Positions 5,971 through 61,791 of a stretch of 64,000 nt of DNA are shown here, one piece after another. The notes under the pieces were generated by a model, which made no database searches, had not been told where the DNA came from, and saw only the letters and a list, made by a program, of their open reading frames with translations. Source of the DNA: Lasiosphaeria ovina (lineage: Eukaryota; Ascomycota; Sordariomycetes; Sordariales; Lasiosphaeriaceae). The stretch is taken from assembly GCA_033439765.1 (NCBI GenBank), contig JAULSN010000008.1, positions 930,001 through 994,000 of the forward strand. The letters run 5' to 3'. Both the position numbers and the translations under genes were made by a program. Numbering within the stretch: the first letter of the stretch is position 1; the number at the start of each line of letters is the position of its first letter.

Positions 5971-5972
5971 TA

Positions 5973-8264: not shown

Positions 8265-8269
8265 TACTT

Positions 8270-45496: not shown

Positions 45497-47213
45497 CGCT
45501 GTCTAAGATGTAAAACGGGGGCTAAATGTGAATATATATACGTTTTGACGTTTGTCACTCAAAAACGACTGGAAATAAACGGAAAACGGGTGCAACCGGG
45601 AATGGGTCGGAAATTCCCACGATCAGTCCTTTTTTTTCTTTTTCTTTTCTTTTTCTTTTTTACAGAAATTGGGCCATGGTATGCCACATGCCACATACCG
45701 TTCCACGCAATCATGGTGCAAAGTCTCCAAGGGCTGGCCGTGAAGCTGTCAAGGCTTGGTAGTAGCTTGCCGGCGTTGCCAAACAGGCCGCGTGTTTGAG
45801 CATGTCGAGGTCGCGCCCCCCACTCCCTTGCCGATGTCGGGCATCTGGTCGCCGCAGATTGCCCGGGAAGGAATCTGGGGGGCGCATGATCTAGTGCGGC
45901 CCCCAATGGGAAACATTTCCTCGGACTCGGGTAGGTAAGGTAGATTGACTGGTCGACCTCCCCGCCCGCCGGCCAGCCCGGCCAGCCCGGTCGGCCCGGC
46001 CCCACCCGGTCCGGCCCAGTTCGCCTGCCTGCCTGCCGAGCTTGCACGGACTCAGAAGAGCTGTGCGTGCCTGTCGCACAGGGCATGTCGCCCTCGCTGG
46101 AGTTGCGGAGGGATCTAAACCGAAGGACGGCAGAGCAGAGCAGAGCCTGTGATTGCCAACATGAATGGGTAGGGGGCACCAAAAACATGAGCTTCACTAT
46201 AACACGCAACACAGGGACAGATTGTCGTCTTGCAAACAAAAAATTGCAATCCCCCACCCCCGCCATTTCAAGCTTCTCACGTCATTCCAGCCTTGAGATC
46301 CCCCCTGTTCCAACAAATGTCACATCCATGCAGTAATAAGGGCAGAAAATGGAAAGTGGCTGGAAACCGAACAGAAAAAAGGGGGAAAGGGGGTGTTTAT
46401 CAACCAACAACCTCTCCTTCGCGGGGTTGACTTGCAGGCTTGACTTCACTGTTATTCTGAACGGGCGCTTCCTTAGTTGTTTTTGTTTGTGGTGTCTGTT
46501 TGTGTGTGGCGTCGTCCAACTAGTTCTAGGTGGGAAAAGTAGGTGTGTAGGTAAGCTTATTGTTCTGGTACTTGGGTTAAGGCGTGGCTGTGAAAAGGGG
46601 CCCAAGTGAGATCAGTGGGACGACTACACTACTCTTATGCCCAGAAATATGAGACGTAGTTGATCACATAGACATGCACAAGACGTGTCGGGCCGCTTGG
46701 CACAGGGTGTCTACAAAAAGCACGACAACTCTTTGTATATGGAAAATAAGGGAAGCAACACCCAGCTGTTCCTCATGTCAGACTCACGCGCCAGAAACAG
46801 GCAACCATGTAAACCCAAAGCAAGGCACCGTCGTCTGAGTTGCCTAACCGCTTTCACTGCTACCTAGTAACTAATTAAAACGCCGAATAACAAAAACATG
46901 TTCGTCTTGCAAACAAGTGCAGAGCCAACTGGTCCTTTACCTCCTCTATCTCACTTTCCTCCAGCCTGGAACTCGCTCCCCTTTGCAAAAAGGAGAAAAA
47001 GGAAAGAAAGTAGAGGGCAAAGGCAAAATCCACCAGATCCACACGAAACAAGAGTAAAAAATAATAAACCACAATAACACCGCCGTGATAGTTCGCCACC
47101 TCGTCGGATGCCCCGTCCCGCCCATCACACCTCTCTCCCTTGCACCCGAGCGGGTGGGTGAGATAGCCACCTGAGGTAGGCATCTTCGCCCACCTCACCT
47201 CTGATTTTCCAGA
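45497..47213. other. URA4 3' region and array border
   Basis: Contains the URA4 3' UTR, a pyrimidine tract (45628-45661) and a GC-rich GGCC-repeat stretch (45960-46020). I see no gene. It separates the conserved block from the small-gene array. Confidence 0.45.
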
Positions 47214-47390
47214 CTACTCCTTCCTCCTCCTCCTCCAGCACCGGTACAGAAAGAAGATGGCTACGCCGAGGAACACCGAGAAGACGAAAATGACCAGGAG
47301 AACGCCCAAGATTCCCGTGACTTGGGTCTTGCCCTTGCGCTTTTTCCGCGCCTCGAGGACGCCGCGCGCGATGAGCCGGGTCAACTCCAT
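47214..47390 (-). CDS. Small single-pass membrane protein, array unit 1
   Basis: 58 residues: a basic N-terminal half (ARKKRKGKTQ), one hydrophobic helix (about 25-49, GILGVLLVIFVFSVFLGVAI then FFLY), then the basic tail RCWRRRRKE. It is the most downstream member of the minus-strand array. I recognise no family. The start is the ATG at 47390, the first after a long leader that carries a (TG)n tract. A TATATAAC sequence lies near 47740 on the minus strand. Unlike its neighbours, it has strong positive charge on both sides of the membrane segment, so its orientation is uncertain. Confidence 0.6.
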   Translation of the reverse strand: MELTRLIARGVLEARKKRKGKTQVTGILGVLLVIFVFSVFLGVAIFFLYRCWRRRRKE

Positions 47391-47525
47391 TTTTCTTTTC
47401 TCTTTGGGTTTCTGTTTGGTGCTATATGGAAGCCGTTGTTGGTCTGCGCACAGACGTGTGTGTGTGTTGATCTGTGAGTTTGGCTTTGTTTACCTTACTC
47501 AACGAGTGACTTCCGCAGTTGTTAT

Positions 47526-47550
47526 TGTGTGTGTGTGTGTGTGTGTGTGT
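47526..47550. repeat. (TG)n microsatellite in the leader of array unit 1
   Basis: About 12 TG copies, 136 nt upstream of the ATG, with further TG-rich sequence around it. Confidence 0.9.
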
Positions 47551-47871
47551 ATACTTATGTGAGAGTGTGTGTGGTGACGTCTCCTTAGTAGGTAGTTCCC
47601 AAGTAGCTAAGGAACGTGTGTATGTGTATTTGAGTGAGTGGCGTCTTGTAGGTGGTGGCCAGGTGGGCAAGGGAGATGTCCGTGAGATGTGGATTAGTGT
47701 AAGCAAAAGGGGGCGAACGGCCGAGTAAGTAGCTGGGTACGGTGTTATATAGGATGGGTATGTGACAACCAGCGGATTGTTCCTAGGTAAGCAAGATCCT
47801 TCTTTATTTTGTTCTACTTGTTTACTTGTTTCGTAACCAGGGGCCTGAAATGTTTTATAGTTGCGGACGCT

Positions 47872-48030
47872 TGGCCGGCGAGCTGGCCGCCCACTGCCGT
47901 GATACGTGAATGGACACCGGCCGTGAAACCGGCCGCCGGTCTGCACGTCCATGTCGGCACGTGGTCGGTAGGGCTGCTGACTGTGCGCGGGAAAACTCCG
48001 TTCCCCGTCTGATAAAACGCCGAACCCATA
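47872..48030. repeat. Array spacer repeat, type I copy 1
   Basis: Contains ACCGGCCGTGAAACCGGCC, then CTGCACGTCCATGTC and GGTAGGGCTG. Two related copies lie at 48611-48770 and 49322-49480, each between neighbouring array genes. The core is an imperfect palindrome of CCGG/GGCC steps. Confidence 0.75.
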
Positions 48031-48152
48031 GGTTCAAGATCCAAAGGAGCCTCCCCATATAGCGCCACTGCTGCCGGTCCGCAAGTTCCTCGCTCTCTCG
48101 ACCACAGGACAGGTGTTCGATCGACAGCCTCCTAGCCGTTAGAATGCCCTCA

Positions 48153-48314
48153 TCAAGATCGAGCCGTGCTCCTCCGTGAATGGAAAAATGACAAACAGAT
48201 CATGGCGACCACGAGAAAGATTACTGCAGGAACTCCAATCTTGGCAGCCATTTTGGCATTTTCTTTCATCTGCTGAGCATCTGGCCAAACCACAGCCCGG
48301 GGCTCAATCACCAT
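48153..48314 (-). CDS. Small single-pass membrane protein, array unit 2
   Basis: 53 residues. Starts MVIEPRAVVWPDAQQMKENA, has one transmembrane helix (about 24-44, KIGVPAVIFLVVAMICLSFF) and ends HSRRSTARS. The N-terminal EPR motif recurs in units 3 and 4. The leader sequence just before the ATG (ACAACAACAATGG) and the promoter 170-200 nt upstream (TATAAG at 48511-48516) also resemble those of the next two units. Function unknown; by the positive-inside rule the tail should be cytosolic. Confidence 0.65.
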   Translation of the reverse strand: MVIEPRAVVWPDAQQMKENAKMAAKIGVPAVIFLVVAMICLSFFHSRRSTARS

Positions 48315-48480
48315 TGTTGTTGTCTCTGTAATGAACGGTGGGCTGTTCTTCGTATGAGCGTGTAAATATATATGTGTGTGTGTGTTCGTGTGTCTGTGTG
48401 TAATTGTGGCGTTTCCTCATTAGGGGCCAGAGCAGAGGCGTGCGATTTTCGTTTGTGGTGTAAAAGGGGGCTGACTGACG

Positions 48481-48517
48481 CGCGGATAGAGATGGGATGC
48501 CAGGGCCGTTCTTATAC
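48481..48517 (-). promoter_or_regulatory. Core promoter of array unit 2
   Basis: Minus strand: GTATAAGAACGGCCCTGG, then CATCCCATCTCTATCCGCG. The second block recurs almost unchanged at the same spacing in units 3 and 4. It may be the transcription start region. Confidence 0.6.
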
Positions 48518-48610
48518 ATAAGCACGGGTGATGGTGGCTGGGCCGTCGGTGTTTCTCGATTTGTCGTGATGCCGACTTATCAAGGTGCAAAGCGGTTCAG
48601 GAAACAAGAA

Positions 48611-48770
48611 GGCCGGCTAACGGGTCATCCCCCGGCCACTTTGACGCCTGAACGGATACCGGCCCCGAAACCGGCCGCCGCACTGCACGTCCATGTCAGT
48701 ACGCTGTCAGTAGGGCTGGCTGCTTGCTGTACGCGGGAAACTCCCGTGCGACTCAAAACGCCAACCCCAT
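48611..48770. repeat. Array spacer repeat, type I copy 2
   Basis: Shares ATACCGGCCCCGAAACCGGC, CTGCACGTCCATGTCAGTAC and CGCGGGAAACTCC with copy 1. Confidence 0.75.
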
Positions 48771-48821
48771 ACAGAATATAAATAAACCCCTCCCCCCAAT
48801 AGAGCCGGCGTTGCTGGTTCA

Positions 48822-49028
48822 CTAGTTCCTCCCTCTCTCGACCATAGGCGCAGGTGAAGTCCTCTTCCTCCGCCGTGAACGTCAAATCATCACACCGCCA
48901 ATACTGAAGGCAATAGCCACTGCCATAAGAATTCCAATCATGGCACCCGTCTTAATCTGGTTAATTATCACCGGACTCCCTGGTTGAATGCTTTGACGTC
49001 AGGGCTGAACCAGTAGCCTTGGCTCCAT
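48822..49028 (-). pseudogene. Array unit 3, decayed single-pass membrane protein
   Basis: Starts MEPRLLVQP, then an in-frame TGA (codon 10), continues RQSIQPGSPVIINQIKTG and a hydrophobic helix (AMIGILMAVAIAFSIGGVMI). A second TGA follows, then a basic tail (RSRRRKRTSP). Both TGA codons would be CGA (Arg) before a single C-to-T change. Reading through them gives the same layout as the neighbours. Its TATA sequence also reads TATGAAA in place of TATAAGA. I interpret it as a recently inactivated paralogue. Confidence 0.7.
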
Positions 49029-49194
49029 TGCCGTTATCTTTGCAGTAAGCGGGGGTTGTTCCTCAGGTGAGCAAGTATGTATATATGTGTGTGGATTTGC
49101 TTGTGACTATGGCGTCTCCTCATCAGGTAGGTGGCCAGAGCGGAGGCGTGCGAATTTGTGTTGTCGTGCGGGCGTAAAAGGGGGCTGAGTGATA

Positions 49195-49233
49195 CGCGGA
49201 TAGAGATGGGATGACAAGGCTGTTCTTTCATAC
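49195..49233 (-). promoter_or_regulatory. Core promoter of array unit 3 (degenerate TATA)
   Basis: Carries the same 19-nt CATCCCATCTCTATCCGCG block (49195-49213). The upstream box reads GGTATGAAAGAAC. Confidence 0.6.
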
Positions 49234-49321
49234 CTAAGCACGAGACGAGCACTGGTGGGTAGGTCGTGGATGTTTCTCGCCTTGTTGTGGTATGTTAGGT
49301 GCGAAGAGGTTCAGGAAACAA

Positions 49322-49480
49322 GGCCGGCTAAGGGGGCCCCCCTTCACGGCCGTGACACGCGAATGGATACCGGCCGCGGACCGGCCGCCGGGCTGCCCCG
49401 TCCGTGTCGGTGGCATTCGGAATTCACGCGGCGCTGGCTGCTCACCTGGTACCAGAAAACCCGTTTGCCATTCTCTATCC
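49322..49480. repeat. Array spacer repeat, type I copy 3
   Basis: Carries GAATGGATACCGGCCGCGG and CGGCCGCCGGGCTGC; the right half is more diverged than in copies 1 and 2. Confidence 0.65.
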
Positions 49481-49630
49481 TCTAAAAAACGCCAAAAACT
49501 CCGTACAAAAGATAATCAACCCACCATGCCAGTGCTGCTAGCTCGCCGTTTCACTTCTCTCACCTCTCGCTCGCTCGCTCGCTTGCAGGTCATCGACCAC
49601 CGCCGAGCCGTAAGCATACCCTCAATATTG

Positions 49631-49801
49631 TTAACGCCTCCTAATGCACTTAATAAGCAAAATAATTCCGCCAACAAGGAACAAGAAACTAAATGCACCG
49701 CCAAGCACAATCATGGAATTTCTCAGCCACGGCATCTCACCCCCGCCTCCAAACCCGGTCACCTCGCGGGGCTCAATCAGGAGCCTTGTGTCCATTTTCA
49801 T
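49631..49801 (-). CDS. Small single-pass membrane protein, array unit 4
   Basis: 56 residues. N-terminus MKMDTRLLIEPREVTGFGGG contains the EPR motif. One transmembrane helix (about 29-51, SMIVLGGAFSFLFLVGGIIL then LI) is followed by the tail KCIRRR. Met3 is an alternative start. The promoter (49985-50016) has TATAAGAAC and CATCCCATCTCT. The ATG context (GCAGAAACAATGAAAATGG) is like that of unit 2. Intact reading frame; function unknown. Confidence 0.65.
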   Translation of the reverse strand: MKMDTRLLIEPREVTGFGGGGEMPWLRNSMIVLGGAFSFLFLVGGIILLIKCIRRR

Positions 49802-49984
49802 TGTTTCTGCACCGGATAGGGGTCGTTGCTTGGGTGTAAATGTGTCTCTGTATATTTTCCTAGTCAGGCAGCAAAAGCAGAGGCGTGTGGCTTTGTTTCT
49901 GCCAGCTGTGTGTGGTGTGGGCTGGTCGGCTGTGAAAAGGGGTCGAGTGATACGCGGGATTGGCGGGATTCCGTGGATTCCGGG

Positions 49985-50016
49985 GAGAGATGGGATGACA
50001 AGGCCGTTCTTATACC
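49985..50016 (-). promoter_or_regulatory. Core promoter of array unit 4
   Basis: GTATAAGAACGGCCTTG followed by TCATCCCATCTCT. Differs from unit 2 only at the distal end. Confidence 0.6.
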
Positions 50017-50422
50017 TAGGTACGTGGGCGCTAGGGCCTGGACCGCGCATGTTTACGGGCCGGTTGTCTGCTCTGCGCCAAGGAGCCAAGTCTTCCTTTA
50101 GGTTTCAGATACGCGGCCGCCAGCCGGGCCCCCCACTGATGCGACGCCGGCCGCCATCCCCGCTACCGGCCGGCCGGGCCGCCCCGCTACCGGCCGGCCC
50201 GTCTAATCTCTCCTCCACCTACCAGCTTGAACCAGCCGTGTTTTCTCTCTCCGAGTGCAGCCGGAAAGACACGGCAGTTTCTTCTCCCAAGACAAAAACC
50301 CCGCTAGTTTTCCCGATTCGCCCCTGTCAACAAACAAACAAACGGCCCCCTCGGCCCTCTCCCTCTGTTTCACGCGCCTGGGACGTGTTACAAATCAGCA
50401 GCTGGCCCAATAGCATAGTATC

Positions 50423-50650
50423 TCAGATAGCAGACCTATTATTGTTGATGGACTGAACACGGGAGGGCCCTGTAGAGTTTTCTCTGCGTTGGTCCTTCAG
50501 CGAGGTCCCCTTGCCAAGGAACTTGGAGCACAGAGCGATAAGAATTCCCACGGCAATAGCAATACCAATACCGCCCACTACCCACCCCCAGTCGACCCCT
50601 CCTTTAGGCGAAGTTCCCGACGATAGAGTCGATGGTGCTCGGTGGAATAT
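50423..50650 (-). pseudogene. Array unit 5, membrane miniprotein lacking an ATG
   Basis: An open frame of 75 codons reads IFHRAPSTLSSGTSPKGG, then a transmembrane helix (WGWVVGGIGIAIAVGILIAL), then a longer hydrophilic tail. Where units 2-4 have ATG after an AAC(A/G)GC(A/C)-like context, this one has ACGGCCATATTCC, with ATA at the start position. No in-frame ATG lies between here and the TATA box (TATAAGAAC near 50855). Either the start codon was lost (G to A), or an unrecognised upstream exon supplies it. Confidence 0.5.
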
Positions 50651-51925
50651 GGCCGTTGTCACTGTGCGTGTATTTGCGTTGCGTTGCCTATCGTCTCGTG
50701 GAGAGCGATGGGTATATTGGCAGACAGGCAGGCTTTGGTAGGAGGCGTGCGAGGCGTTCGAGTTGAAATCTCGGCTGGGTGTCTTAATGAGGATGTCTGT
50801 TGAGTGAGGCGCGGATGGAGATTCGGGTGGGACAGATGGGACGACGAGAGTGTTCTTATACCCAGAAAGGCGATGAAGTGAATCGCAAACTTGTCTCGAT
50901 TGTTTACCCATTGCGGTTCCATTGTTTACCTCTTGCAGAATCTTGGGAATATCTGCTGGTTGAGAGCCCCCCGGCCTTGATGTGATGTAATGATGGGCTG
51001 TGGAGATGGCCACCTGCCCGGCTCGCGAGGGGGGGAGAAGGGGCGCGATGTGCCAGACCATGGGGAGGCCTTGAGTGCGGCCACCCTCCCATTCAGCACC
51101 CTCGCCAAACAAAATGTCCGCCCTGCCTGAGGGAAGAGAAAGAGCAAAAAGAAAAAAGACAGCTTTGCGCAAAGCATTCTCGCAAGTAAATGAGCAAAAC
51201 TGGAGCCCCTAATTGGAGATTATAAGATTCCCGAGTGTGATCATGGTGTGGAGTTGCGATGTTTGTAGACAACATTAGACAGTGGTGTCTTACGCCCGGC
51301 AATTGTTTACTTTCTTGCTGTGGGGCTCTGTAATTCCTTTTGGCAGTTTTAGAAAAAAAATGTTTTCGTTCAACGCCCCTTACCGCTGGACCAAGCTCCG
51401 TGGACTTGGCTGCCCGGTTGCCCCTGCCGGAGACTAAAAGGGGGTTTATTTTGGAGTACGAACGGCGTTTGGAGCGTCATCATTCGTGTGCATCTCTTTC
51501 CTCTTGAGACAAAATAGCAGTCTCCGCCGTTGCTAGTTTTAATAACGCTGTCTTTGCCAGTTCCTTAATCATAAAAATGTACAGGTTCTAATCCGAATTC
51601 AGGGGCTCCCATCGTTGGAGCTAAGCTGATAAACAAAACCCCGCATGGATTGTAAACAAGAACAGGGCTGACAACACGTAACCCAGTTTTTTGAGCGAGA
51701 TTCCCGGAGCGCTTCCAAATACTGCACTCTGTACCATCTGTTTCCAGCTTATCTTACACGCGCGGGTTGGACGATAAAAACGAACGACCAGGTGCCTGAG
51801 CAACTCCCAACCCGGTCCTCCTGCCGGTGCTGGATTGCAACAACACAAACGAATGACCCGCGTCCGAGCTGAACACAGCAACACAGTATTTAACGTGATA
51901 TACCTGAGAACGAAGTTTGGCCCTG
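50651..51925. other. Spacer between array units 5 and 6
   Basis: Contains the unit 5 promoter. A hydrophobic peptide near 51621-51700 (minus strand) might be another decayed member, but no start or basic tail can be shown. Confidence 0.35.
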
Positions 51926-52219
51926 TTACTTCTTCCCACTCTTCTCCCTCCGCCGCTGAATCAAGACGAAGATCACTCCCAGGACAACCAAGCCCGCAGC
52001 TCCGGCGGCTACAATAATCAGTATGAGTGAACCTCCCGATGGCGCACCCTCATTGGCCCTCCGCCCTAGAACCGTTTCGGACCCTATCACTTGCTGCTGA
52101 GCGAGAGGAATGTTGTCTTGAGGGGGGAAGGCGTACATGCCGGGCGTTGGTAAATAGCGGCAGCCTGTGATGATGCAGGCAGGTTGAGTCCTTTGCGGAG
52201 GGCGGAAGGCTTTCTCCAT
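51926..52219 (-). CDS. Small single-pass membrane protein, array unit 6
   Basis: 97 residues with a longer N-terminal segment (MEKAFRPPQRTQPACIITGC onward), one helix (about 64-88, SLILIIVAAGAAGLVVLGVI then FVLI) and the tail QRRREKSGKK. A TATATAAC box (minus strand, about 52303-52310) is about 90 nt upstream of the ATG at 52219. A downstream ATG at 52138 would give 70 residues. Same architecture as the other units, with little sequence similarity outside it. Confidence 0.6.
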   Translation of the reverse strand: MEKAFRPPQRTQPACIITGCRYLPTPGMYAFPPQDNIPLAQQQVIGSETVLGRRANEGAPSGGSLILIIVAAGAAGLVVLGVIFVLIQRRREKSGKK

Positions 52220-52588
52220 ATACTTTGGAGAGCGTATTTGACTGCGGTGCACAGATGACAATGCGCTGGTTTGTGCTGGGATGCATTGTGGAAACGCCCT
52301 CGTTATATAGCAAGGAGAACTCCATGTCTTGTCACTTGACCAGGTATCTGTTCATCCGATTTCCTTCAAAAGCACAACCCGTAAAAGGTTTGAAGATAGA
52401 CGGCTTCATTCGCGATGACACCGGCCGCGAGTCGGCTGCCGGGCTGCCTAGTTATACGCGAATGTGTGGAATACGCACCAAGATTCGGAATACGCAATAA
52501 TGGCGGATACGCCGACATGCGAGATGGACGGCACGGCCGGCCGGCCTGTTGCCAAGGGCAAAGAAGGCTAACGGTGAAGGAATTTTGG

Positions 52589-52616
52589 TTTTTTTTTTTT
52601 AAAAAAAAAAAAAAAA
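52589..52616. repeat. T12-A16 homopolymer palindrome
   Basis: T run joined directly to an A run; a possible fold-back or an assembly artefact. Confidence 0.8.
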
Positions 52617-53247
52617 CTCCGTCGACGATCAAGGCGCCATGGCTGTCTAGGTGATGGTATGTGTGTTTTGTCTGTTATGCTCTCATTGCTCAGAAGGTGA
52701 CTAAATACGCTAAAGTACATACATACCTTGGGAAATGTACGTATGTGACGACAGTGACGACGCCCCCTATTATTAATGACGATGATCATTTGCTCACTCC
52801 TGTTAGTCGGGAAATAAACTTGCAATATGTGTGATTCCACTATTTTCCGGGCCCCCGTTTCTGAACAACGGATACAAAAGGGGTAGGTCCACTGGCTACG
52901 AGGCGGTGGGCGTGTCAAAGCCTTCCTGGTTGGTTTTGCTGAAGAGCGAGGTCCCAGGGAAGGGGAAGTAAGAAGTGCAGGGCCGAGTCGAGGCAAGAAT
53001 GATCAAACAAAAAAACAAACAGACCCCGGATTGGGGTATAAATGGATTGAGACGAAAGTTTCAATAAACTCCTGATTTGGATGCCCATGCATGTTAAAGA
53101 ACTCCCCACCAAAGAAACACAAGAATGAAGACGACGCCGGCTGTACGCTGCCCGCCGGGCTGACCCCGTCTCTATACAAGGGGCGAGGACGACTAAATGT
53201 TCGAGGGCGAGTTGAACAACGTCTTCTCTCTCCCAGCTAAGTAGCCC
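52617..53247. other. Spacer between array units 6 and 7
   Basis: A TTTATACCCC box sits near 53035 on the minus strand as if for another unit, but no membrane miniprotein frame follows. It may be an orphan promoter or a lost gene. Confidence 0.35.
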
Positions 53248-53598
53248 TCAATAAGGAAGCCGCGCTTGCGTAGCCCTCTGCGCCCTGAGCTTCTGGATCG
53301 CCCTGCCGCGGCGGAAGATGGCAATGCCGAACAGGAGGCCCAGGAGAAGGGGTCCGCCGGAGAGGCTGGCCATCATGATGGCGTCTGCATCCATTGCCGC
53401 CTGCCTGGGGCTGACTTTCTTGAGGCGGACGTCGAACGGGTCGGCGGTGATCGGCAGTGGTGGTCGGGGGTGGTAGCTAGAGGTGCCGCCGCCGGCAGCA
53501 GGGGTCCTCGTCTTTTCTAGTTCCATTTCCTCTGCAGCGGGCTGTGTTGATGCTGTTGACGAGTCGGTTGCGCTCTGGATGAAGAAGCGGCGGAACAT
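53248..53598 (-). CDS. Small single-pass membrane protein, array unit 7
   Basis: The largest member at 116 residues. Starts MFRRFFIQSATDSSTASTQP, then a Pro/Ser-rich stretch and a helix near the C-terminus (about 72-95, IMMASLSGGPLLLGLLFGIA), followed by FRRGRAIQKLRAQRATQARL. The start at 53598 lies below a (GAT)n tract and a TATAAAA box (53733-53740, minus strand). An internal ATG (MELEKTRTP) is an alternative start. Confidence 0.6.
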   Translation of the reverse strand: MFRRFFIQSATDSSTASTQPAAEEMELEKTRTPAAGGGTSSYHPRPPLPITADPFDVRLKKVSPRQAAMDADAIMMASLSGGPLLLGLLFGIAIFRRGRAIQKLRAQRATQARLPY

Positions 53599-53623
53599 GG
53601 ATGGGGACACACAAAGATTGGAC

Positions 53624-53629
53624 GATGAA

Positions 53630-53684
<55 letters not shown>
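53624..53684. repeat. (GAT)n microsatellite in the leader of array unit 7
   Basis: About 20 trinucleotide copies, 26-86 nt upstream of the ATG and between it and the TATA box. Confidence 0.9.
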
Positions 53685-53685
<1 letters not shown>

Positions 53686-53881
53686 CGGCGAAAAGAAAAT
53701 AAGAAAGTTGGGACGGCGGGGCCATGGCATTGTTTTATAATTCACTAACCGCGGATACACAATCCTTCTTTTTCCACCTTCTTCCTTTCTTTTTGGGGAC
53801 CTTTTCTTTCCGTGCTTGGCTCGATTCACTGGCTTCGTGTACCACAGTCACAGCCGCACAGTTTCGCTATTGCGGGGTCTT

Positions 53882-53913
53882 GGTTTCGTAACCACGGCCG
53901 CTGAACACCCGGC
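53882..53913. repeat. Array upstream box, copy 1
   Basis: GGTTTCGTAACCACGGCCGC then TGAACACCCGGCC. This TTTCG..AAACACGGCCG..CCGGCC pattern recurs once per array unit, always on the promoter side of a minus-strand gene. Eight copies were found by eye (53.9, 55.0, 57.1, 58.1, 58.9, 60.2, 60.9 and 62.0 kb). It is a candidate shared activator site. Confidence 0.6.
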
Positions 53914-53947
53914 CTCACCGTCACGTTGGCCGGTTTGAGGGCCGCCG

Positions 53948-53973
53948 CCCCTCGACGGCGCCGGCCGGGCCAC
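53948..53973. repeat. GC-rich spacer box, copy 1
   Basis: CCCCTCGACGGCGCCGGCCG then GGCC. Further copies at 55112, 56051 and 57158; a variant lies at 58188. Confidence 0.7.
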
Positions 53974-54572
53974 CGGGACCTCTCCGGCCGCCCTAGCCGC
54001 GGTTTACCCAACGTACCTACTTGCGCGGCGATAATATAGACTTGGATATTCGGCATGGTGCGATTGACGGTATTGTGGTAAACTGTGGAAGGGTTTGGTG
54101 GATTTTGCGATAGCCTCGGTTGCAAGTTGAACCTGCACTGTCTTGTGTCTTCTGTTATCTAATATAATCAAGAGCGGCTTCCGCAGCTGGATCTATGACC
54201 AAAGTGAATTGTAACCGGCAATGTAGTTACGGTGTGTTGTCAAAGTCTCCAACTTGGCTGGTTTCTGGAGAGCAAAGTCGCAGGGCAGTACACAAGATAA
54301 GACGCGGAGACGCAGAGTTGGGCGAGGCAGGCAAGAAATATAACGCAAACAAGACGAGTCAGGCACGGGCAGAAAATATAGGACGAGAAGAGCCTTCCCT
54401 TTGTTAATACAAATCCAGATTAGGTACATTCTCCCCCTTCCCACTCCTACTCATCAGAGCAGGACGACAAATTGGTTCCGGGCGAGGCCAACACACATCT
54501 TCCATGTTCTTTTCTCGACCACCGTGGGAGTGCAGTGCCCAAGGTCGGCTGCCTTGGGTAGAAGCCCAGGAA

Positions 54573-54720
54573 TTAATTCCCTGCCCGCGCCATTGACTGA
54601 TTTGCAACCCCATTCTTATCCTTCTTCTTCTTCTGACGTACCCAACAATTGCGCCAGGACCGGTGGTTGACGAGCCGGTACTGTGGTGATTGTAGGTGAT
54701 CCCACCGGCGCGCGGCGCCA
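54573..54720 (-). pseudogene. Array unit 8, tail-only remnant
   Basis: One frame ends QKKKDKNGVANQSMARAGN-stop. It resembles the tail of unit 11 (AEKAAAEQQMAQTGN) and keeps the basic run, but the hydrophobic helix is missing and no ATG precedes it in frame. The sequence above it (CGGAAACTCATCGCC, near 54760) is shared with unit 10. It looks like a deletion derivative. Confidence 0.5.
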
Positions 54721-55039
54721 ATTTTTTGTGTCACTGGAGGGGGGGGGGGGTCTGCCCGTCACCGGCGATGAGTTTCCGCGTCCACGTATTGGTATTTTTA
54801 TTGTTTACTTGAAAAGGGGGTGGCCGAGACCGAGTAAGACGCCAGAGATGAGATAAGATGGGTTTATTGGTAAAAGTAATGATACGAAATAGACGGGACG
54901 GACACCAGCATTGATTCTATAGCCTACGAATTATCTAGTAAAGTTTATTTTCCATTTTGCTTCCATTATTTCTCTTCTCTCGGTTAGATCTAGCGGCTTG
55001 CTGTACAACGATAACACAGTTTTGTTATCGAGGGTTTGT

Positions 55040-55080
55040 GGTTTCGCAAACACGGCGGCTGGCTGAAAAGCCGGCCGGCC
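55040..55080. repeat. Array upstream box, copy 2
   Basis: GGTTTCGCAAACACGGCGGC, then a diverged right half with CCGGCCGGCC. Confidence 0.55.
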
Positions 55081-55111
55081 CTTATTGTGATGCTGGCTGG
55101 TAAGAGGGTCG

Positions 55112-55140
55112 CCTCCCCTCGACGACGCCGGCCGGGCCGC
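55112..55140. repeat. GC-rich spacer box, copy 2
   Basis: CCTCCCCTCGACGACGCCGG then CCGGGCCGC. Confidence 0.7.
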
Positions 55141-55612
55141 CAGAACCTGCCCGGCCCCATATTTCAGGTTCGGCTTGCAACTCTCAGGCTATCGCCAAAT
55201 CCACCGGGGTTTCTCAGAAAGACGTAGGTAGCTAATTAGAGGCGCGGGTGTATTACAAAGTCTTCCACTTTGGCTGGTTTCTAGAGAGCAAAGTCTCACC
55301 AGAAAGATCAAAGAGAGACAAGAGAGGCAGGCATGGGCAGTAAAGACGGAACAGGAAGGGCTGTTTTTTTTTGAATATATATATATATAATTCCCGATTT
55401 AGGTACTGTAACATATTTCCCAACCGCGCTCCTTCCCTTGTTTTGCTGATCAGAGGAAAACGACAAATAATTGGTTCAGGGCGAGGTCAACGACATCTTC
55501 CCATAGGTAGGTATGCATCTTCTTCTCTCTCGGCCACCACGGAGTACCTTAGGTAGGCAGGCACGGCAGATTAGGAATATCCCTTGGAGTTCGCTGCCTG
55601 CGCCGCCCCCCC

Positions 55613-55804
55613 TTATCGCTTTGCCCTCCGCTTCTCACCCATTATCCTGTACATCCTAAAACAGAGAAAAATGGCAAAAGCAAGCACCATCAATCCGACT
55701 ATTCCTACGACGATGTACACCGCAATCATGAGACCCGGCGAACGAAGATTGTTAAAGGTGGCTGGCGAGCCGTCAGTGTGGGGGACCGACACACTGCTGG
55801 GCAT
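55613..55804 (-). CDS. Small single-pass membrane protein, array unit 9
   Basis: 63 residues: MPSSVSVPHTDGSPATFNNL, one helix (about 25-49, LMIAVYIVVGIVGLMVLAFA then IFLCF), then RMYRIMGEKRRAKR. The leader ends CACACAAAAAAATG, as in unit 10, and the first residues (SVSVPH) match unit 10 as well, so the two are close paralogues. Here the frame is intact. The region upstream (about 55870-55930) shares a CTTCAAGG(A/C)TCTCGACG-like block with units 10 and 11. Confidence 0.65.
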   Translation of the reverse strand: MPSSVSVPHTDGSPATFNNLRSPGLMIAVYIVVGIVGLMVLAFAIFLCFRMYRIMGEKRRAKR

Positions 55805-56050
55805 TTTTTTGTGTGACCGGGGGGGGGGGGTGGGGGGGGAGGGGATCTGTTACCCTTGTTCTATGTTGGTAGCGTCGAGAGCCTTGAAGGAGTACCCGGC
55901 ACCGGTGGTAGGCTCGCTCCCGCGTGCCTGTGGTGTGTTGATCGTTCTGTTTTGCTGCTGCGGCGGTGGGGCCGGATCGACGACCTGTTTGCTTCTTCTC
56001 GAAAAGGGGTAGGCGGCCCTCAATGTGTTGCTAGCTGGTTTGAGGGTCAC

Positions 56051-56078
56051 CGCCCCTCGACGACGCCGGCCGGGCCGC
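56051..56078. repeat. GC-rich spacer box, copy 3
   Basis: CGCCCCTCGACGACGCCGGC then CGGGCCGC. It is followed by ACATTGCAGGTTCAACTTAC, a stretch also found after copy 4. Confidence 0.75.
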
Positions 56079-56526
56079 ACATTGCAGGTTCAACTTACAA
56101 TGAAGGTTATCGCCAAATCCACCAAGGCTTCTTCTGAGCAAGAGCTAGGTAGATGTGGCTAATACGGCTTACGAGGCGCGGGCGAGCCGTCAACGTCTTC
56201 TTGGCTGGTTTCCCGAGAGGAAAAGTCGAAGGGTAGTAAACAAGACGCGGAGACACAGAAGTAGACGAGGCAGGAAAGATCAGACAAAGATGATGTAGGT
56301 ACGGGCACCAAATACAAAACGGTTTTTTTCTAATGAAAATATATAATTCCTGAAGAAGTACTGTACATTTTCCCTACCCAAGGCGGAAGATCACCAATGG
56401 CCATATGTTGCCCGCCAGGCTGCCCCTACTCGGACAAGTCAAAGACGGCAAATTTACTCAGGGTGATGTCAACCACATCTTCCATCTTCTTTCTCGACCA
56501 CAACAGAGAACCCAAGGTAGGAATAC

Positions 56527-56747
56527 CTAGACCCTGGAAAGCCCTACATATGCCGCCTGCGGGTTTATACCGTCCTTCTTATCACGCCTCTTCTTCGAGC
56601 ATTTCTCAACACTACGGTAAATAGTAGCACCAACCAATAACGATCCGACTACCGTTCCGGCGATGACCCCAAAAAGAGCGCCATTTGACAAGCCAGACGT
56701 GGCGGGTGGGAAACTGCCACTGTGGGGGACCGACACACTGACGGCAT
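56527..56747 (-). pseudogene. Array unit 10, frameshifted close paralogue of unit 9
   Basis: The membrane-protein frame reads VSVPHSGSFPPATSGLSNGA, then a helix (LFGVIAGTVVGSLLVGATIY), then SVEKCSKKRRDKKDG. The ATG at 56747 sits where unit 9 has its start, but there are 11 nt from ATG to the shared GTGTCGGTC, against 12 in unit 9. The ATG is therefore out of frame by one deleted base. The membrane frame stays open far upstream but contains no ATG. It is either a frameshift mutant or a gene initiated or spliced in a way I cannot see. Confidence 0.55.
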
Positions 56748-57089
56748 TTTGTGTGTGACTAGGGGGGTTAACGTCGAGAGTCTTGAAGGGTGTGTGCCCG
56801 TCAGCGGCGATGAGTTTCCGCGTCTGAGTGTTGATATTTTCTGGTTTGTGGCGGGCCGGATCGACGACCTACTTGGTTCTCCTCATAAAATAGAGTGGCC
56901 GAGAGCGAGTAAGATGCTAGAGATGGGATGGCTGGCAAAACATGACAAGAGAAACACAAGGCGGAGGCTCGCATTGTTATATATCAATCCGCAAATCATC
57001 CAGCGAAGTTTCTTTCCCTTTCTTCTTTCCCTTCCCTGATTCACAGGCTTGCTGTACAACAGTTGCACAGTTTCGTTATCGATGGTGGT

Positions 57090-57120
57090 GGTTTCGTTGA
57101 CATGGCCGCTGAAGACTGGC
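57090..57120. repeat. Array upstream box, copy 3
   Basis: GTTTCGTTGACATGGCCGCT then GAAGACTGGC. Preceded, as in copies 1 and 4, by CACAGTTTCG. Confidence 0.6.
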
Positions 57121-57157
57121 CGAATTCGCTGTTATATGGTCTGTGCCTGAGGGTCGC

Positions 57158-57184
57158 TGCCCCTCGACGACGCCGGCCGGGCCG
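57158..57184. repeat. GC-rich spacer box, copy 4
   Basis: TGCCCCTCGACGACGCCGGC then CGGGCCG, followed by ACATTGCAGGTTCAACTTGC. Confidence 0.75.
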
Positions 57185-57453
57185 CACGCACATTGCAGGT
57201 TCAACTTGCAGCGGGAAGAGTGTTTTCTTATAGAACTTCCTGATTATACCGCGTCGTGCGCGTAAGGGCGCGTGTGGTTTCGCAGAGGAAGACTGGTGAA
57301 GACCCCCAACCGAAGAAAAAGAAACAGAAAAACACCAGTCATAGGTTGCCAGCCAGGCTGCCTCTCTGGCTCATTAGCGAAAGATTACAGATTGATTCAG
57401 GGTGAGGTCACGACATCTTCCATCTTCGCGCTCAACCACTACCTACGGAGTAC

Positions 57454-57684
57454 CTAGGAATAACCCCGGGAATTCCCTGTCTGCGCCATTTGCTGCTCTG
57501 CAGCCGCCTTCTCAGCCTTCTTCCTCTTGTATTTCTGAACACCAAGCCCGATGAAAAGAGCAGCCGCAGCCGCTCTGACTATTCCGACGACGACGAAAAT
57601 ACCAATGGTGAACCCCGACATGCCAGAGCCATTATTGGCCGCCGTCCCACTGCTCTTCCGTGGCAGCAGTAGTAGACTAGGCAT
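57454..57684 (-). CDS. Small single-pass membrane protein, array unit 11
   Basis: 76 residues: MPSLLLLPRKSSGTAANNGS, one helix (about 22-49, GFTIGIFVVVGIVRAAAAAL then FIGL), then a long charged tail (QKYKRKKAEKAAAEQQMAQT then GNSRGYS). The Arg inside the helix is unusual. The upstream segment (57725-57760) is shared with units 9 and 10. A TTATAAAG box lies at about 57955-57962 (minus strand), with a CCCTTT microsatellite just beyond it. Confidence 0.62.
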   Translation of the reverse strand: MPSLLLLPRKSSGTAANNGSGMSGFTIGIFVVVGIVRAAAAALFIGLGVQKYKRKKAEKAAAEQQMAQTGNSRGYS

Positions 57685-57998
57685 TTCTGCGGCTGGGGGC
57701 GTTCTGTTGCCCTTGTTTACACAGTAAACGTCGAGAGTCTTAAAGGGTGCCCGGCACCGGCGACAAGTTACCGTGTCCGTAAGGGAGACGGGACAAGGCT
57801 GTGTCAATCCTTTCTGTGTTGCGGCGGGCCCGAGCGACGACCTCTTTCGTTGCTCGAAAAGGGGGTGGGCCGAGAACGAGAAAGACGCCAGAGATGGGAT
57901 GGGACGGCGGCACAAGTGGTGACACAAAAAAAACATGGGACGGAGGCTAGCAAGGCTTTATAATCTATCTGCGTATCATCCAGCCAAGTTTTCCTTTT

Positions 57999-58058
57999 CC
58001 CCTTTCCCTTTCCCTTTCCCTTTCCCTTTCCCTTTCCCTTTCCCTTTCCCTTTCCCTT
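57999..58058. repeat. (CCCTTT)n microsatellite upstream of array unit 11
   Basis: About 10 hexanucleotide copies between the TATA box of unit 11 and its upstream box. Confidence 0.9.
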
Positions 58059-58129
58059 CCTTCTTTCTTTTGGCTCGATCCAACCCGCGTCCTGCACAAC
58101 AGCCACACAGTTTCGGTGTCGAGGGTCTT

Positions 58130-58160
58130 GGTTTCATAAGCATGGCCTCTGAGGACCGGC
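58130..58160. repeat. Array upstream box, copy 4
   Basis: GGTTTCATAAGCATGGCCTC then TGAGGACCGGC. Confidence 0.6.
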
Positions 58161-58187
58161 CTCAGCACAATATCGGTTGTTTCAAGG

Positions 58188-58230
58188 GCCGCCGCCCCAC
58201 CGATGACGCTGGCCGGATGGCCCGGCCGCC
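58188..58230. repeat. GC-rich spacer box, diverged variant
   Basis: GGCCGCCGCCCCACCGATGA, then GCTGGCCGGATGGCCCGGCC. Confidence 0.55.
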
Positions 58231-58391
58231 GGGCCGCGCCCCCCTCTGGAGGTACGCGAGCCAAGACGGGAGCAGACACACCGGGCGGATCATCACATGC
58301 CCCAAGAGCAAGAGCAGAAACGGGAGGAATAACCGATGAACGTGAATGGCTGGGTATATACCTTAGGTAAAAATATAGTACAATGTCTCCT

Positions 58392-58610
58392 TCATCGGCT
58401 GCCAGGGTTCTTGTTGTTCTTCTTCTTGTCCTTGCAACATAACCTCTTGCCAATGAACCCCATGCATTGATCCCAACCCTCCGCTCCACGAGCAACAATG
58501 GTGACAAATATCCCCAAAGCCAGAATGCCCAGGACGGCGCCAGCAATTACGCCCGGGGTCCAACCGCTGGCCGAGTTGGAATCTGCACGAAGCTGGAGTG
58601 GATTGGGCAT
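58392..58610 (-). CDS. Small single-pass membrane protein, array unit 12
   Basis: 72 residues: MPNPLQLRADSNSASGWTPG, one helix (about 19-40, VIAGAVLGILALGIFVTIVA), then a tail with three Cys and a Lys-rich end (CMGFIGKRLCCKDKKKNNKN then PGSR). The paired Cys could be palmitoylated. A TTATAAGA box lies near 58806 (minus strand). The start is the first ATG in frame. Confidence 0.62.
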   Translation of the reverse strand: MPNPLQLRADSNSASGWTPGVIAGAVLGILALGIFVTIVARGAEGWDQCMGFIGKRLCCKDKKKNNKNPGSR

Positions 58611-58879
58611 TGCTGCTTGACCGGTGCCTGTCTTGCACACGGCGAGAGTCCAAAGTCTTGTTGTGTATGATCGATCCCAAGCAGTAAGTGAAGGTGGGCG
58701 AGGTTATTCTGGTCTTGTCGTTCTTCTTTTTCGGCTTGCTTGCCTGTTTGTTTGCTTGTAGCGGGCCCCGGTTGAAGATCAGAGCTGATGAGACGACCGC
58801 GCTGTCTTATAATCCACGGATGAGCAACGCGGTCTTTTATTAGGCATGTTCATTGGCTCCATCTGCGACTATCGCGTGC

Positions 58880-58910
58880 TTTCGTGAAACACGGCCGTCC
58901 AAGACCGCCC
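58880..58910. repeat. Array upstream box, copy 5
   Basis: TTTCGTGAAACACGGCCGTC then CAAGACCGCCC; the version closest to the visual consensus. Confidence 0.6.
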
Positions 58911-59565
58911 AGGGGTGATACAGGCGGCCGAGGCCTTCCCCGCGGGGGTGCCGGCCGGGGCTAGTCCGGTGGGGTTCTGTCCATTCAAGAGTCAAGGCGA
59001 GGATGCGGCGAGATAGACGAGGCCACAGGTCTGTTTCCTAAAAAGAGAGTTAACCGAGACGCGACTACAAGCCCTGGAGTGAGGCTAAGCTGAAACTGCA
59101 CTATGGCGGGAGTTGCGTGTCATTTTGGACAGTGTGAACAACCAAACAAATTGGAAACCCGGCCACATTGCATCTTGGAACGAGTTTTCGGCAATATCCA
59201 GGTATTTGAGTATCGTGGTTGTTGGGAAAGGGGGGTCTCGCGAGCCGGGCGACATGCCTCGGTCGGCGCTGTTTACATTCTCCAACATGCGCCGTACGTC
59301 AATACATGACGCTCCAGCCATCTTCTAGCGGTTTTGGCACACGGCGCTGGAAGTAAGCCATGCATTTATTGCCATCTAAAGCTTAGGACACCGCTTTTCA
59401 GGGGCGAGTAATAAGTACATAAAGAAAATGAAGTAAACAAACCCCCCAAAAACCAAACACCAAAGGTATATCCTTCCAAACCCAAGAATTAGTCTACACT
59501 ACATACATTCACACTCACAACGACCTTCTCCTCTGCCTGCTACGAGTTCGTAGTCTAGGGCAAGA
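58911..59565. other. Spacer between array units 12 and 13
   Basis: No gene; AT-rich after 59390, probably the 3' region of unit 13. Confidence 0.45.
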
Positions 59566-59724
59566 TCACCTCCTTCTTCTGCGGCATTTGCCGACACATA
59601 TGTAAAGAAAGAATATAATCAGGAGAAAGATGGCGACCGCGAAAGCGCCAATTAGAATCTTATACACGTTTCGCTCCCCTTCGGGGAACTGCTGGAGGAA
59701 CTCAAAGTCGAAGAGGTCCGCCAT
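59566..59724 (-). CDS. Small single-pass membrane protein, array unit 13
   Basis: 52 residues: an acidic N-terminus (MADLFDFEFLQQFPEGERNV), one helix (about 23-45, ILIGAFAVAIFLLIIFFLYI) and KCRRRRR. The strong charge contrast predicts the N-terminus outside or luminal and the tail cytosolic. A TTATA sequence is present near 59797 and 59809 (minus strand). Confidence 0.65.
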   Translation of the reverse strand: MADLFDFEFLQQFPEGERNVYKILIGAFAVAIFLLIIFFLYICVGKCRRRRR

Positions 59725-59857
59725 GTCTTGTTTTGTTTTGTTTTTAGGGTTGGGTTAGGTTGGGCTGGGTTGGAACGGTTTCTGTACTGCACGAGGTATA
59801 AGTTGGCTATCTATAAGACGGCACCCCCGCAGGAGGCAAGACAATAAACTAAGTACC

Positions 59858-59890
59858 TTTTTTTTTCTCTTTTTTTTTCTCTTTTTTTTA
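59858..59890. repeat. T-rich tract upstream of array unit 13
   Basis: Three T8-9 runs separated by CTC. Confidence 0.85.
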
Positions 59891-60207
59891 GTGGCGGGAT
59901 TTGTCAGAGACTGTTTTTACTTCCGCTGTTTACGAATAGAGGCTGGCGCCAAGGTAAGCGAGGTAGGTAGGTAGGGTTTGTGGGTTGAGCGTCGTGGACG
60001 GCGGGACCAAGGCGAGAGAAGGATGGACCACGGCGAGAGAAGGACAGACCAAGTGTGAATTGATGGACCAAATGGGAAAAGGATTGACCAAGAGGGAAAA
60101 GGGTAGGATGGGATAGACAGCGGCACGGTATATGTAATAGGTAGATACAGTGCCTGAGGCGGCCGGCGTTGTTTTCCGAGCAAGATACGAGGGTTTCGTG
60201 CTGACCG

Positions 60208-60238
60208 TTTCATAAACTTGGCCGTCGAAGGCCGGCCC
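60208..60238. repeat. Array upstream box, copy 6
   Basis: TTTCATAAACTTGGCCGTCG then AAGGCCGGCCC. Confidence 0.6.
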
Positions 60239-60506
60239 CACCCCCGTTCCGGCCCCGAGGGTGGCCGGAGGGCGGCCGCCTGCCGGAAACGCCCATCACC
60301 CGCACAGGCTTAATATTATTGCGTAGTAATCTGTCGATCAAAGTAGTGGATATATTGTCTCGCAAAAACAAATTCTGAACTAACAGAGAACCAACTGCCT
60401 AGAAGCAAACCAAATTTCTCTTCAACAACTGCCCTGGGTAGTTTCCAGGGCCGGGTTCTCGGTCCACGAGCGCCTCTCTTCCCAGCCAAGCAGGGTAACC
60501 AAACAA

Positions 60507-60626
60507 CTACCTCCTTCGGCGTCTTACCACGACACATACAATTACAGATGCCACAAACAAAAGCGCTAAAAAAGCACCGATCGACGCCTCCTGCCTTGGG
60601 GAAAGCCCGTCCACGTAATGATTCAT
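60507..60626 (-). CDS. Small single-pass membrane protein, array unit 14
   Basis: The smallest, 39 residues: MNHYVDGLSPRQEASIGAFL, a helix (about 15-34, reaching LALLFVASVIVCVVV), then RRRRR. The ATG at 60626 is the first in frame after an upstream open stretch that starts only with GTG. Repeats the pattern of unit 13 in minimal form. Confidence 0.58.
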   Translation of the reverse strand: MNHYVDGLSPRQEASIGAFLALLFVASVIVCVVVRRRRR

Positions 60627-60928
60627 GGTGCAGCAGCACTCTGTTGTTGCCGGACTGGGACCGTTGTGATGTGAGGGAAGCGACAAAGGTTCGAGGCAAG
60701 GCACTGGCTACCTGTTTTGATGGCGGGCTTTGAAATGTGTTCTGCCGAAGACTGTTTTCGAGTCGGGTTTCTTTGTAAGTCGAAGGAGACTGACGGCAGT
60801 AAACAAGGTGGAGATTTTGCGGGTGAGTGCTAGACTGTATATATACTGCGTGGATACAGTACCTGAGGCTGGTGACGTCGTTTGGACTTTCCCGTCGGGT
60901 TGAGAAATATCAGAGTCTAATTCGGGTT

Positions 60929-60959
60929 GTTTCGAAACATGGCTGTGGAGGTCGGCCCC
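60929..60959. repeat. Array upstream box, copy 7
   Basis: GTTTCGAAACATGGCTGTGG then AGGTCGGCCCC. Confidence 0.6.
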
Positions 60960-61097
60960 CCATCGCTCGGCTCGTGCTGACGCAGGACGTGGCCAGGCCG
61001 CCGGGCTGACCGGTGGTTACTCAAATTCCAAGGCGCAAATCAGAGGAAATACATGTGACGGTGAAGCTGAAGAGTAAACAAAGTGCGGTTCACCTAT

Positions 61098-61343
61098 TTA
61101 GTGGCCGGTGGATGATGTTTTAGTAACCATTGCATCTCCTCCAACTTCATCAGCAAAAAAATTGAAGACAAAATATATATTATTATTATACAGACAGACT
61201 CTAATTGTCGAGACTAACAGAGAAACAATGGTGCCCAATTCTTCCAACAGGTCAAGGCCTAGGACAAGAAATGCTACACCAACAACAATAATGATGAAAA
61301 TAAATGCAACTCAGACATAACCCCTAACACCGCCACTCCGCAT
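61098..61343 (-). pseudogene. Array unit 15, decayed
   Basis: MRSGGVRGYV, an in-frame TGA (codon 11), then a hydrophobic run (VAFIFIIIVVGVAFLVLGLD) and a hydrophilic remainder. No basic tail follows the helix directly. The TGA is one C-to-T change from CGA. It could also be chance hydrophobic sequence. Confidence 0.4.
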
Positions 61344-61584
61344 GCTCTCGTGGTTGGAGATCAATTATATCTTGTCCAAGACCACGAGACCGTGGCTGAT
61401 CTCTATATGGTGCGTGTAGTCTCGTTCTGTCCGTTGAACCGATTCTGCCCCGGGTATCGAAGCAGACGTCGGCAGTCGTGACAGCCATTAATCTCTGGTC
61501 GAAGATGCCTCGGCGGGCCCCAAGTCGACTCTGTGTAACGTGTGTAACGACGGGTCCCCCGGCCGTTCCGCAAGCCGAACTGTA

Positions 61585-61791
61585 TCAGCCTTCTTCTTCC
61601 TGGTTTCTCTGCTTCCAGATGACAACGATGATAATTATTATGATGAGGGTTGCGAAAACGGCAAACAAAGGCCACTGGTGTTTGTAATACCACTTCTGGA
61701 GTGTGCAGGTGAAGAGGATACAGCTTCCGTGGGGCTGGTTGCCATATGTGCCCGTGGCGCCATACTGGCGTCGTTGAAGGGCGACCCCCAT
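61585..61791 (-). CDS. Small single-pass membrane protein, array unit 16
   Basis: 68 residues: MGVALQRRQYGATGTYGNQP, then HGSCILFTCTLQKWYYKHQW, a C-terminal helix (about 40-59, PLFAVFATLIIIIIIVVIWK) and QRNQEEEG. The acidic end differs from the other units. An upstream box (copy 8) and a CTATAAGA sequence (near 61960, minus strand) precede it, linking it to the array. Confidence 0.55.
   Translation of the reverse strand: MGVALQRRQYGATGTYGNQPHGSCILFTCTLQKWYYKHQWPLFAVFATLIIIIIIVVIWKQRNQEEEG

Follow-up and report, generated by a model that had tools for sequence, protein, structure and literature searches.

Can a row of very small open frames on one strand of a fungal contig be a gene family, and what could have diversified its copies? 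The question is raised by the Lasiosphaeria ovina window analysed here, a stretch of 64,000 nucleotides (positions 930,001-994,000 of a contig of 2,979,109 bases, in a genome of 51.7 Mb and 32 contigs). Fifteen recognisable tandem units are placed at 47.2-61.8 kb of the window, all on the minus strand and in the interior of the contig. Eleven of them contain an intact ATG frame of 39-116 codons, each with one hydrophobic stretch (Kyte-Doolittle), and four, read by eye, are broken (56.7, 54.6, 50.6 and 49.0). The observation is real and far above chance, and the units very probably constitute a tandem family of tiny genes for one-helix membrane proteins. The reading favoured here, with a probability of about 0.4, is a tandem birth-and-death family of microproteins with the N-terminus outside and the C-terminus inside, in which the layout is kept over the sequence and which recognition or conflict has perhaps diversified.

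The array and its open frames

The units are listed below with the lengths of their products in amino acids (aa). The start codons of units 57.7, 52.1 and 49.8 were chosen from the leader position and the likeness to neighbouring units.

Unit 61.8, 61585..61791, minus strand: intact, 68 aa; helix, non-basic tail (net -1)
Unit 60.6, 60507..60626, minus strand: intact, 39 aa; helix and RRRRR tail
Unit 59.7, 59566..59724, minus strand: intact, 52 aa; helix and RRRRR tail; no [LIV]xxR motif
Unit 58.6, 58392..58610, minus strand: intact, 72 aa; helix and basic tail
Unit 57.7, 57454..57684, minus strand: intact, 76 aa from the chosen ATG; the open frame extends upstream
Unit 56.7, 56528..56747, minus strand: broken; frameshift near the start
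Unit 55.8, 55613..55804, minus strand: intact, 63 aa; basic tail; no [LIV]xxR[QAEK] motif
Unit 54.6, 54570..54730 (ends approximate), minus strand: broken; no start codon and no helix
Unit 53.3, 53248..53598, minus strand: intact, 116 aa from a start placed by comparison with the L. miniovina relative; helix weaker (19-mer 1.91)
Unit 52.1, 51926..52138, minus strand: intact, 70 aa from the chosen ATG; upstream in-frame ATG at 52219
Unit 50.6, 50423..50650 (start approximate), minus strand: broken; no in-frame ATG from the TATA box to the helix
Unit 49.8, 49631..49801, minus strand: intact, 56 aa from the chosen ATG; the open frame extends upstream
Unit 49.0, 48824..49027 (3' end approximate), minus strand: broken; in-frame stops
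Unit 48.3, 48153..48314, minus strand: intact, 53 aa
Unit 47.4, 47214..47390, minus strand: intact, 58 aa; third-codon-position GC 0.88

A first-pass annotation of this DNA had proposed 16 units from their stops. Units were recognised at 15 of these, and the remaining one, near 61.1 kb, has no listed ATG frame with a 19-mer of at least 1.7. The proposed size of 39-116 residues agrees with the 11 ATG frames. The basic tail, described for most units, is found in 10 of the 11 (net charge +3 to +7), and the single helix is likewise strong in 10 of the 11 (best 19-mer 2.52-3.15), being weaker in unit 53.3.

The frames were counted under a strict rule, by which an ATG open reading frame (ORF) has at least 30 aa, a best Kyte-Doolittle 19-mer of at least 2.4 and a tail net charge of at least +2. 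At 47.0-62.2 kb, 9 such frames are found on the minus strand and none on the plus strand, whereas every one of 200 dinucleotide shuffles gives none. In the comparison that the first-pass annotation had proposed, the hydrophobic frames are thus more frequent than in shuffled sequence. The control DNA contains one frame in positions 1-47,000 of the window (both strands summed) and one across six 10-kb stretches taken from this genome (both strands; one stretch overlaps the window by 1 kb), which together give 2 frames per 214 kb of strand-bases. Eight of the 11 intact units follow the strict rule, and the ninth frame is a long one over unit 50.6 with its ATG upstream of the TATA box. Units 61.8 (tail net -1), 58.6 (basic residues farther out) and 53.3 (low 19-mer) fall outside it. 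A looser rule (ORF of at least 25 aa, 19-mer of at least 1.7, tail ignored) gives 18 minus-strand and 5 plus-strand frames at 46.0-62.6 kb.

The persistence of the helix is also difficult to obtain by drift. In a neutral simulation with the ATG held fixed and indels excluded, a frame of 30 codons with a 19-mer of at least 2.5 survives in 4.2% of the runs at 30% divergence and in 1.0% at 40%, whereas 10 of the 11 intact units reach that value. A purine is placed at -3 of the ATG in 10 of the 11 (binomial 0.006). The GC content by codon position is 0.54/0.45/0.64, in the same order as in three comparison genes of the window, with the low second-position value partly due to hydrophobic codons.

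The sequences themselves are poorly conserved, with a mean column identity of 21% among the 11 unit proteins. On the N-terminal side, the pattern [LIV].[PRLA]R[QAEK] occurs in 9 of the 11 units, compared with a mean of 0.29 in shuffled sequences, where 9 was reached in 0 of 5000 shuffles; [LIV]-x-x-R as a kept feature is suggestive. By eye, most units lack a signal-peptide-like stretch before the helix. According to the positive-inside rule, the basic tail would face the cytosol.

Shared cassettes, duplication and RIP

The DNA around the frames carries a cassette which, in several units, is ordered toward the ATG as a GC-rich element, a GTTTC-type box, TATAAGA, TCCCATCTCT and CCCCCTTTT. Mismatch-free TATAAGA occurs at -172 to -213 in 5 of the 15 units (61.8, 58.6, 50.6, 49.8 and 48.3), mismatch-free TCCCATCTCT in five (57.7, 56.7, 49.8, 49.0 and 48.3) and mismatch-free CCCCCTTTT also in five (57.7, 54.6, 49.0, 48.3 and 47.4). 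The remaining units match the boxes poorly. The kept flanking boxes of the first-pass annotation are consequently common to several units and not to all 15, and the cassette, as judged from these matches, shows a family likeness and falls short of a strict consensus. One example contains the boxes mismatch-free:

Cassette upstream of unit 48.3, 48315..48677, minus strand: GC direct repeat at -363, TATAAGA at -202, TCCCATCTCT at -183, CCCCCTTTT at -156

The GC direct repeat CGGCCGGTNNCNNGGCCGGT has two occurrences in the genome, both inside the array. Neighbouring units have leader, promoter and 3' DNA in common, in pieces of up to 412 bases that are mostly 68-90% identical. BLASTN aligns units 49.0 and 48.3 over 412 bases at 71% identity as far as the start codon, and aligns them again from about 170 bases farther on. 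This common DNA, together with the broken units, upholds the repeated duplication that had been proposed.

Several other features lie within or beside these leaders. A (GAT)n run (53624-53685) is placed in the leader of unit 53.3, directly upstream of its start. The leaders of units 48.3 and 49.0 share, by eye, a similar upstream ATG frame (ATGAGG..., minus strand, 48250-48430 and 49000-49140), a possible upstream ORF. A promoter-like stretch at 46500-46650 resembles the cassette and contains the CCACTGATCTC and CCCCTTTT boxes, with no helix frame downstream on the minus strand; it is perhaps a sixteenth, lost unit. A 47-base piece occurs at 54095-54141 and 56079-56125 in opposite orientations (85% complementary), which indicates that the array was also rearranged by inversion.

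The coding sequence (CDS) was compared with its flanks in eight close pairs, of which six were taken first and two (48.3-47.4 and 56.7-54.6) were added later with all 55 intact pairs. The DNA identities are given as leader/CDS/3' flank, and the shuffled floors of the first six pairs are 0.39-0.48.

Pair 49.0-48.3: 0.80/0.58/0.73
Pair 57.7-56.7: 0.71/0.53/0.61
Pair 57.7-55.8: 0.57/0.59/0.63
Pair 56.7-55.8: 0.63/0.54/0.69
Pair 49.8-49.0: 0.67/0.56/0.59
Pair 49.8-48.3: 0.58/0.48/0.57
Pair 48.3-47.4: 0.42/0.48/0.38, at the floor
Pair 56.7-54.6: 0.77/0.50/0.59 (Fisher 8e-7)

In the first six pairs the CDS identity is below that of the leader in five (Fisher <0.05 in four) and below that of the 3' flank in all six (Fisher <0.05 in two). 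It is under both flanks in 5 of the 8 close pairs, as counted here. The coding part is conserved no better than the flanks, unlike what is expected for ordinary genes.

Repeat-induced point mutation (RIP) was considered as the engine of this divergence and rejected, given that both RIP criteria together point to RIP in 0 of 8 two-kb segments at 46-62 kb (46-48 kb is near). The RIP-context transitions in three unit pairs are 20/130, 15/161 and 19/149, as raw counts with no computed expectation. The lineage does show RIP, as both criteria indicate it in 3 of 3 two-kb segments at 4-10 kb. The region 4001-10000, where GC falls to 39-48%, is probably a RIP-mutated repeat. RIP recognises duplicates above a threshold of length and identity, and the homology between units is perhaps below it. 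As far as the accessible text of PMC12258605 goes, RIP prevents tandem gene duplications, and unequal crossing-over may still build clusters in Sordariales.

Relatives, further copies and neighbours

A profile of the 11 units, searched against 5.8 billion proteins, gives two matches at E of at most 10 among 1262 candidates. One is the Lasiosphaeria miniovina hypothetical protein B0T26DRAFT_868435 (111 aa, E 3.8e-10), and the other is a 68-aa protein identical to unit 61.8 and listed with no source, as are the proteins encoded by the window. Unit 53.3 (116 aa) is 92% identical to the L. miniovina protein over 95%, so that the frame of one unit is kept in a second species, and as a single query it finds only this protein among 18 candidates. 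No annotated relative was found outside Lasiosphaeria in a database that holds many Sordariales, where tiny frames often go unannotated. The single annotated relative, from another species, fits the earlier expectation that gene callers would miss most units. A lineage-restricted family would be the best reading of these searches.

Named families were not recovered. None of the 11 intact units has an above-cut-off Pfam match (searched at E of at most 10), and the 10 units within the PADLOC scan, all but 48.3, have no match there, in line with the first-pass statement that no named family is known to have this organisation. The PMP1_2 family (PF08114) is missing among the Pfam matches of all 11. 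In the whole genome it matches one place outside the array (C31:2318686-2318763, 18.8 bits against a cut-off of 22.3), a 52-codon open frame that is perhaps the ordinary PMP1 gene of this fungus; 2 of 14 control genomes also match below the cut-off. Rfam at gathering thresholds detects no family at 46-63 kb, a search which a novel antisense RNA would escape. In a structure library, the unit profile retrieves only generic receptor-type helices (best E 0.0017). Literature searches aimed at such an array retrieved no published description, most subscription journals lying outside their scope.

Further copies in the genome were sought with DNA, proteins and promoter patterns. Three DNA stretches match only places in the array, plus a 40-base match at C12:2663654 that involves the CA-rich leader. 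The protein searches used 3 of the 11 unit proteins: that of unit 53.3 finds itself only, that of unit 47.4 itself and C9:259249 (E 0.13), and that of unit 57.7 itself, unit 55.8 (E 0.0012) and C27:4478576 (E 0.0028). The last place sits in a 367-codon Ser/Thr-rich frame with a helix and a basic tail, and was set aside as a generic resemblance. The first promoter pattern matches 11 places, two exactly (both in the array) and nine elsewhere with one mismatch, compared with three for the reversed control. The second matches seven, three in the array and four elsewhere (control 0), and the third and fourth match two places and one, all within the array. No convincing further copy thus appears outside the array in these genome searches.

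The array is bordered on the left by an amidohydrolase-type gene (44.2-45.5 kb, plus strand; Pfam match slightly under the cut-off), which we take to be the dihydroorotase gene 'URA4', and on the right by a formyltransferase gene outside the window. A DRE2 exon is placed at 42.6-43.4 kb. A plus-strand ORF of 270 codons (49644-50456), antisense to units 49.8 and 50.6, has no Pfam match and is probably a chance frame; the plus-strand ORF at 49292-49819 has no Pfam match either. An (AGGAAG)n tandem repeat of 35 copies (11197-11406) accounts for the strong skew in A and G between 10 and 12 kb.

Explanations of the array and comparison with known systems

According to the favoured reading, each unit would be its own transcription unit and would be translated. 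The product may be a one-helix membrane microprotein, inserted with the N-terminus out and the C-terminus in, with a short outer part that usually carries the [LIV]-x-x-R site and, on the cytosolic side, a basic tail that could bind anionic lipid. The helices would pair sideways with membrane partners. Constraint would then act on the build rather than on the sequence, and the variety of the copies would be favoured by recognition or conflict, either between strains or within the genome. Judged from sequence, the role in recognition or conflict taken by itself is doubtful. The complete picture, of an unnamed hypervariable family of one-helix microproteins that serves recognition or intragenomic conflict, in which similar cassettes carry divergent peptides, short length and divergence together evade RIP, and gene callers have missed the units, is unlikely to be right in every part.

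Several observations weigh against this reading. Every significant close pair includes a broken unit, and the pairs have units in common. The 55 intact pairs average 0.43/0.43/0.42; the CDS is lower than the leader in 25 pairs and lower than the 3' flank in 24, and most of the 55 are at the alignment floor and hence uninformative. The two intact pairs picked beforehand are split in relation to the leader, as 49.8-48.3 is lower (not significantly) and 57.7-55.8 is not lower. The CDS deficit is found mostly in pairs with broken units, and coding acceleration is unproven. The fast divergence of the first-pass annotation holds as strong divergence of both proteins and intact-pair DNA (about the floor), and not as a coding part faster than its flanks. 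Consequently, lower odds are given to conflict and higher ones to proto-genes. The four broken units imply that single copies are dispensable, unit 61.8 lacks a basic tail and unit 53.3 has a weak helix. The [LIV]xxR pattern was defined post hoc, from sequences already seen; an unsupervised motif search recovers it at width 6 with a score of 93.3, which does not surpass the 20 shuffles (88.7, standard deviation 3.4, maximum 97.3). Motifs of helix packing occur 12 times, close to the 11.6 expected, and so show no enrichment. The neighbouring frames, to which the search was limited, include no gene recognised as a partner, an antidote or a defence factor.

Two other explanations, each improbable when taken singly, are nearly as likely as recognition or conflict. 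The units may act like yeast Pmp1/Pmp2, as small proteins that regulate a pump or transporter in the membrane, the helix binding the pump and the tail anionic lipid, with copies for different partners or conditions and no conflict. The shortest unit (39 aa, helix, RRRRR) has the size class and build of Pmp1, and unit 48.3 matches the Pma1-stabilising Psg1 in Pfam below the threshold (E 0.0064, 16.7 bits; cut-off 30.1), a likeness that probably reflects a helix in general. In the available part of PMC6521590, deletion of Pmp1/Pmp2 halves the Pma1 ATPase-specific activity in Saccharomyces cerevisiae, whereas the pmp1 deletion has no phenotype in Candida albicans. On the other hand, PMP1_2 has a single place in the genome, below threshold and away from the array, and 15 very divergent copies would be unexpected. 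Alternatively, the frames may be transmembrane-first proto-genes, young and mostly dispensable, that arose when helix-prone non-coding DNA was duplicated with an active promoter. The broken units, the coding DNA conserved no better than the flanks and the apparent lineage restriction (L. miniovina only, among annotated proteins) are consistent with this origin. Transmembrane polypeptides are proposed, in the accessible text of PMC7005711, to emerge from thymine-rich non-genic DNA; the array DNA, at 51-54% GC, is not strikingly thymine-rich. Moreover, the helix, the basic tail and the N-terminal pattern recur jointly across very divergent units, the helix is lost quickly in the neutral simulation, and one frame is kept in a second species.

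The remaining explanations carry much lower odds. It is hardly probable that the frames are only the final exons of larger, spliced type I proteins with signal-peptide exons upstream, in which [LIV]xxR would be a propeptide cleavage site. This motif recalls the kexin-type propeptide ends of fungal secreted proteins, and the leaders extend about 150-300 bases past the TATA box where the box could be placed, but the purine at -3 of the local ATG and the equally local start of the L. miniovina gene model argue against it. A non-coding tandem repeat with frames by chance is the least probable: the flanks do align better than the frames in most close pairs, but the frame counts, far above those of shuffles, opposite strand and control DNA, speak against it, as do the start context, the codon-position composition and the frame kept in L. 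miniovina. Killer peptides that act on membranes, as part of a meiotic drive or a comparable poison system with other units as suppressors, are quite improbable as well. The fast copy turnover and broken copies recall the wtf drivers (PMC7032740, accessible text) and charged peptides with a single helix are reminiscent of bacterial type I toxins (PMC8309996, likewise), but no antidote form, dual transcript or antisense RNA family (the last by the Rfam search above) is seen, and the helix is single.

Should the units be translated, they would form a tandem family of about 15 genes that annotation has almost entirely passed over because each gene is tiny, and that persists in a lineage with RIP, where one would not expect tandem duplicates to endure. 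Such a family would be a natural series of one-helix membrane microproteins with a constant build and a variable sequence, and roles in recognition, conflict or transporter control would become testable in filamentous fungi.

Among known systems, yeast Pmp1 and Pmp2 resemble the units as one-helix proteins of about 40 residues with a basic tail, but their genes are few and near-identical, whereas the array has 15 divergent tandem units with no sequence match to them. The wtf proteins of fission yeast are larger and multi-helix, with poison and antidote forms, in contrast to the one hydrophobic stretch of each unit, which places the units outside that family. The likeness lies in a large, divergent and fast-turning family with broken members, as described in the accessible text of PMC7032740. 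Bacterial type I toxins are also small hydrophobic peptides with one predicted helix (available part of PMC8309996), but they are bacterial and have antisense RNA antitoxins, whereas the array has eukaryotic TATA-type promoters and no Rfam match. The de novo transmembrane ORFs of budding yeast are short frames with a helix, restricted to a lineage as the units may be; those in the accessible portion of PMC7005711 come from thymine-rich non-genic DNA, whereas the array is tandem, with shared promoters and a recurring motif. The NOD-like receptor (NLR) clusters of Sordariales are clustered, diversifying genes of the same fungal order, discussed with RIP and unequal crossing-over in the available text of PMC12258605, but they consist of two to five large receptor genes whose proteins are unrelated to those of the array.

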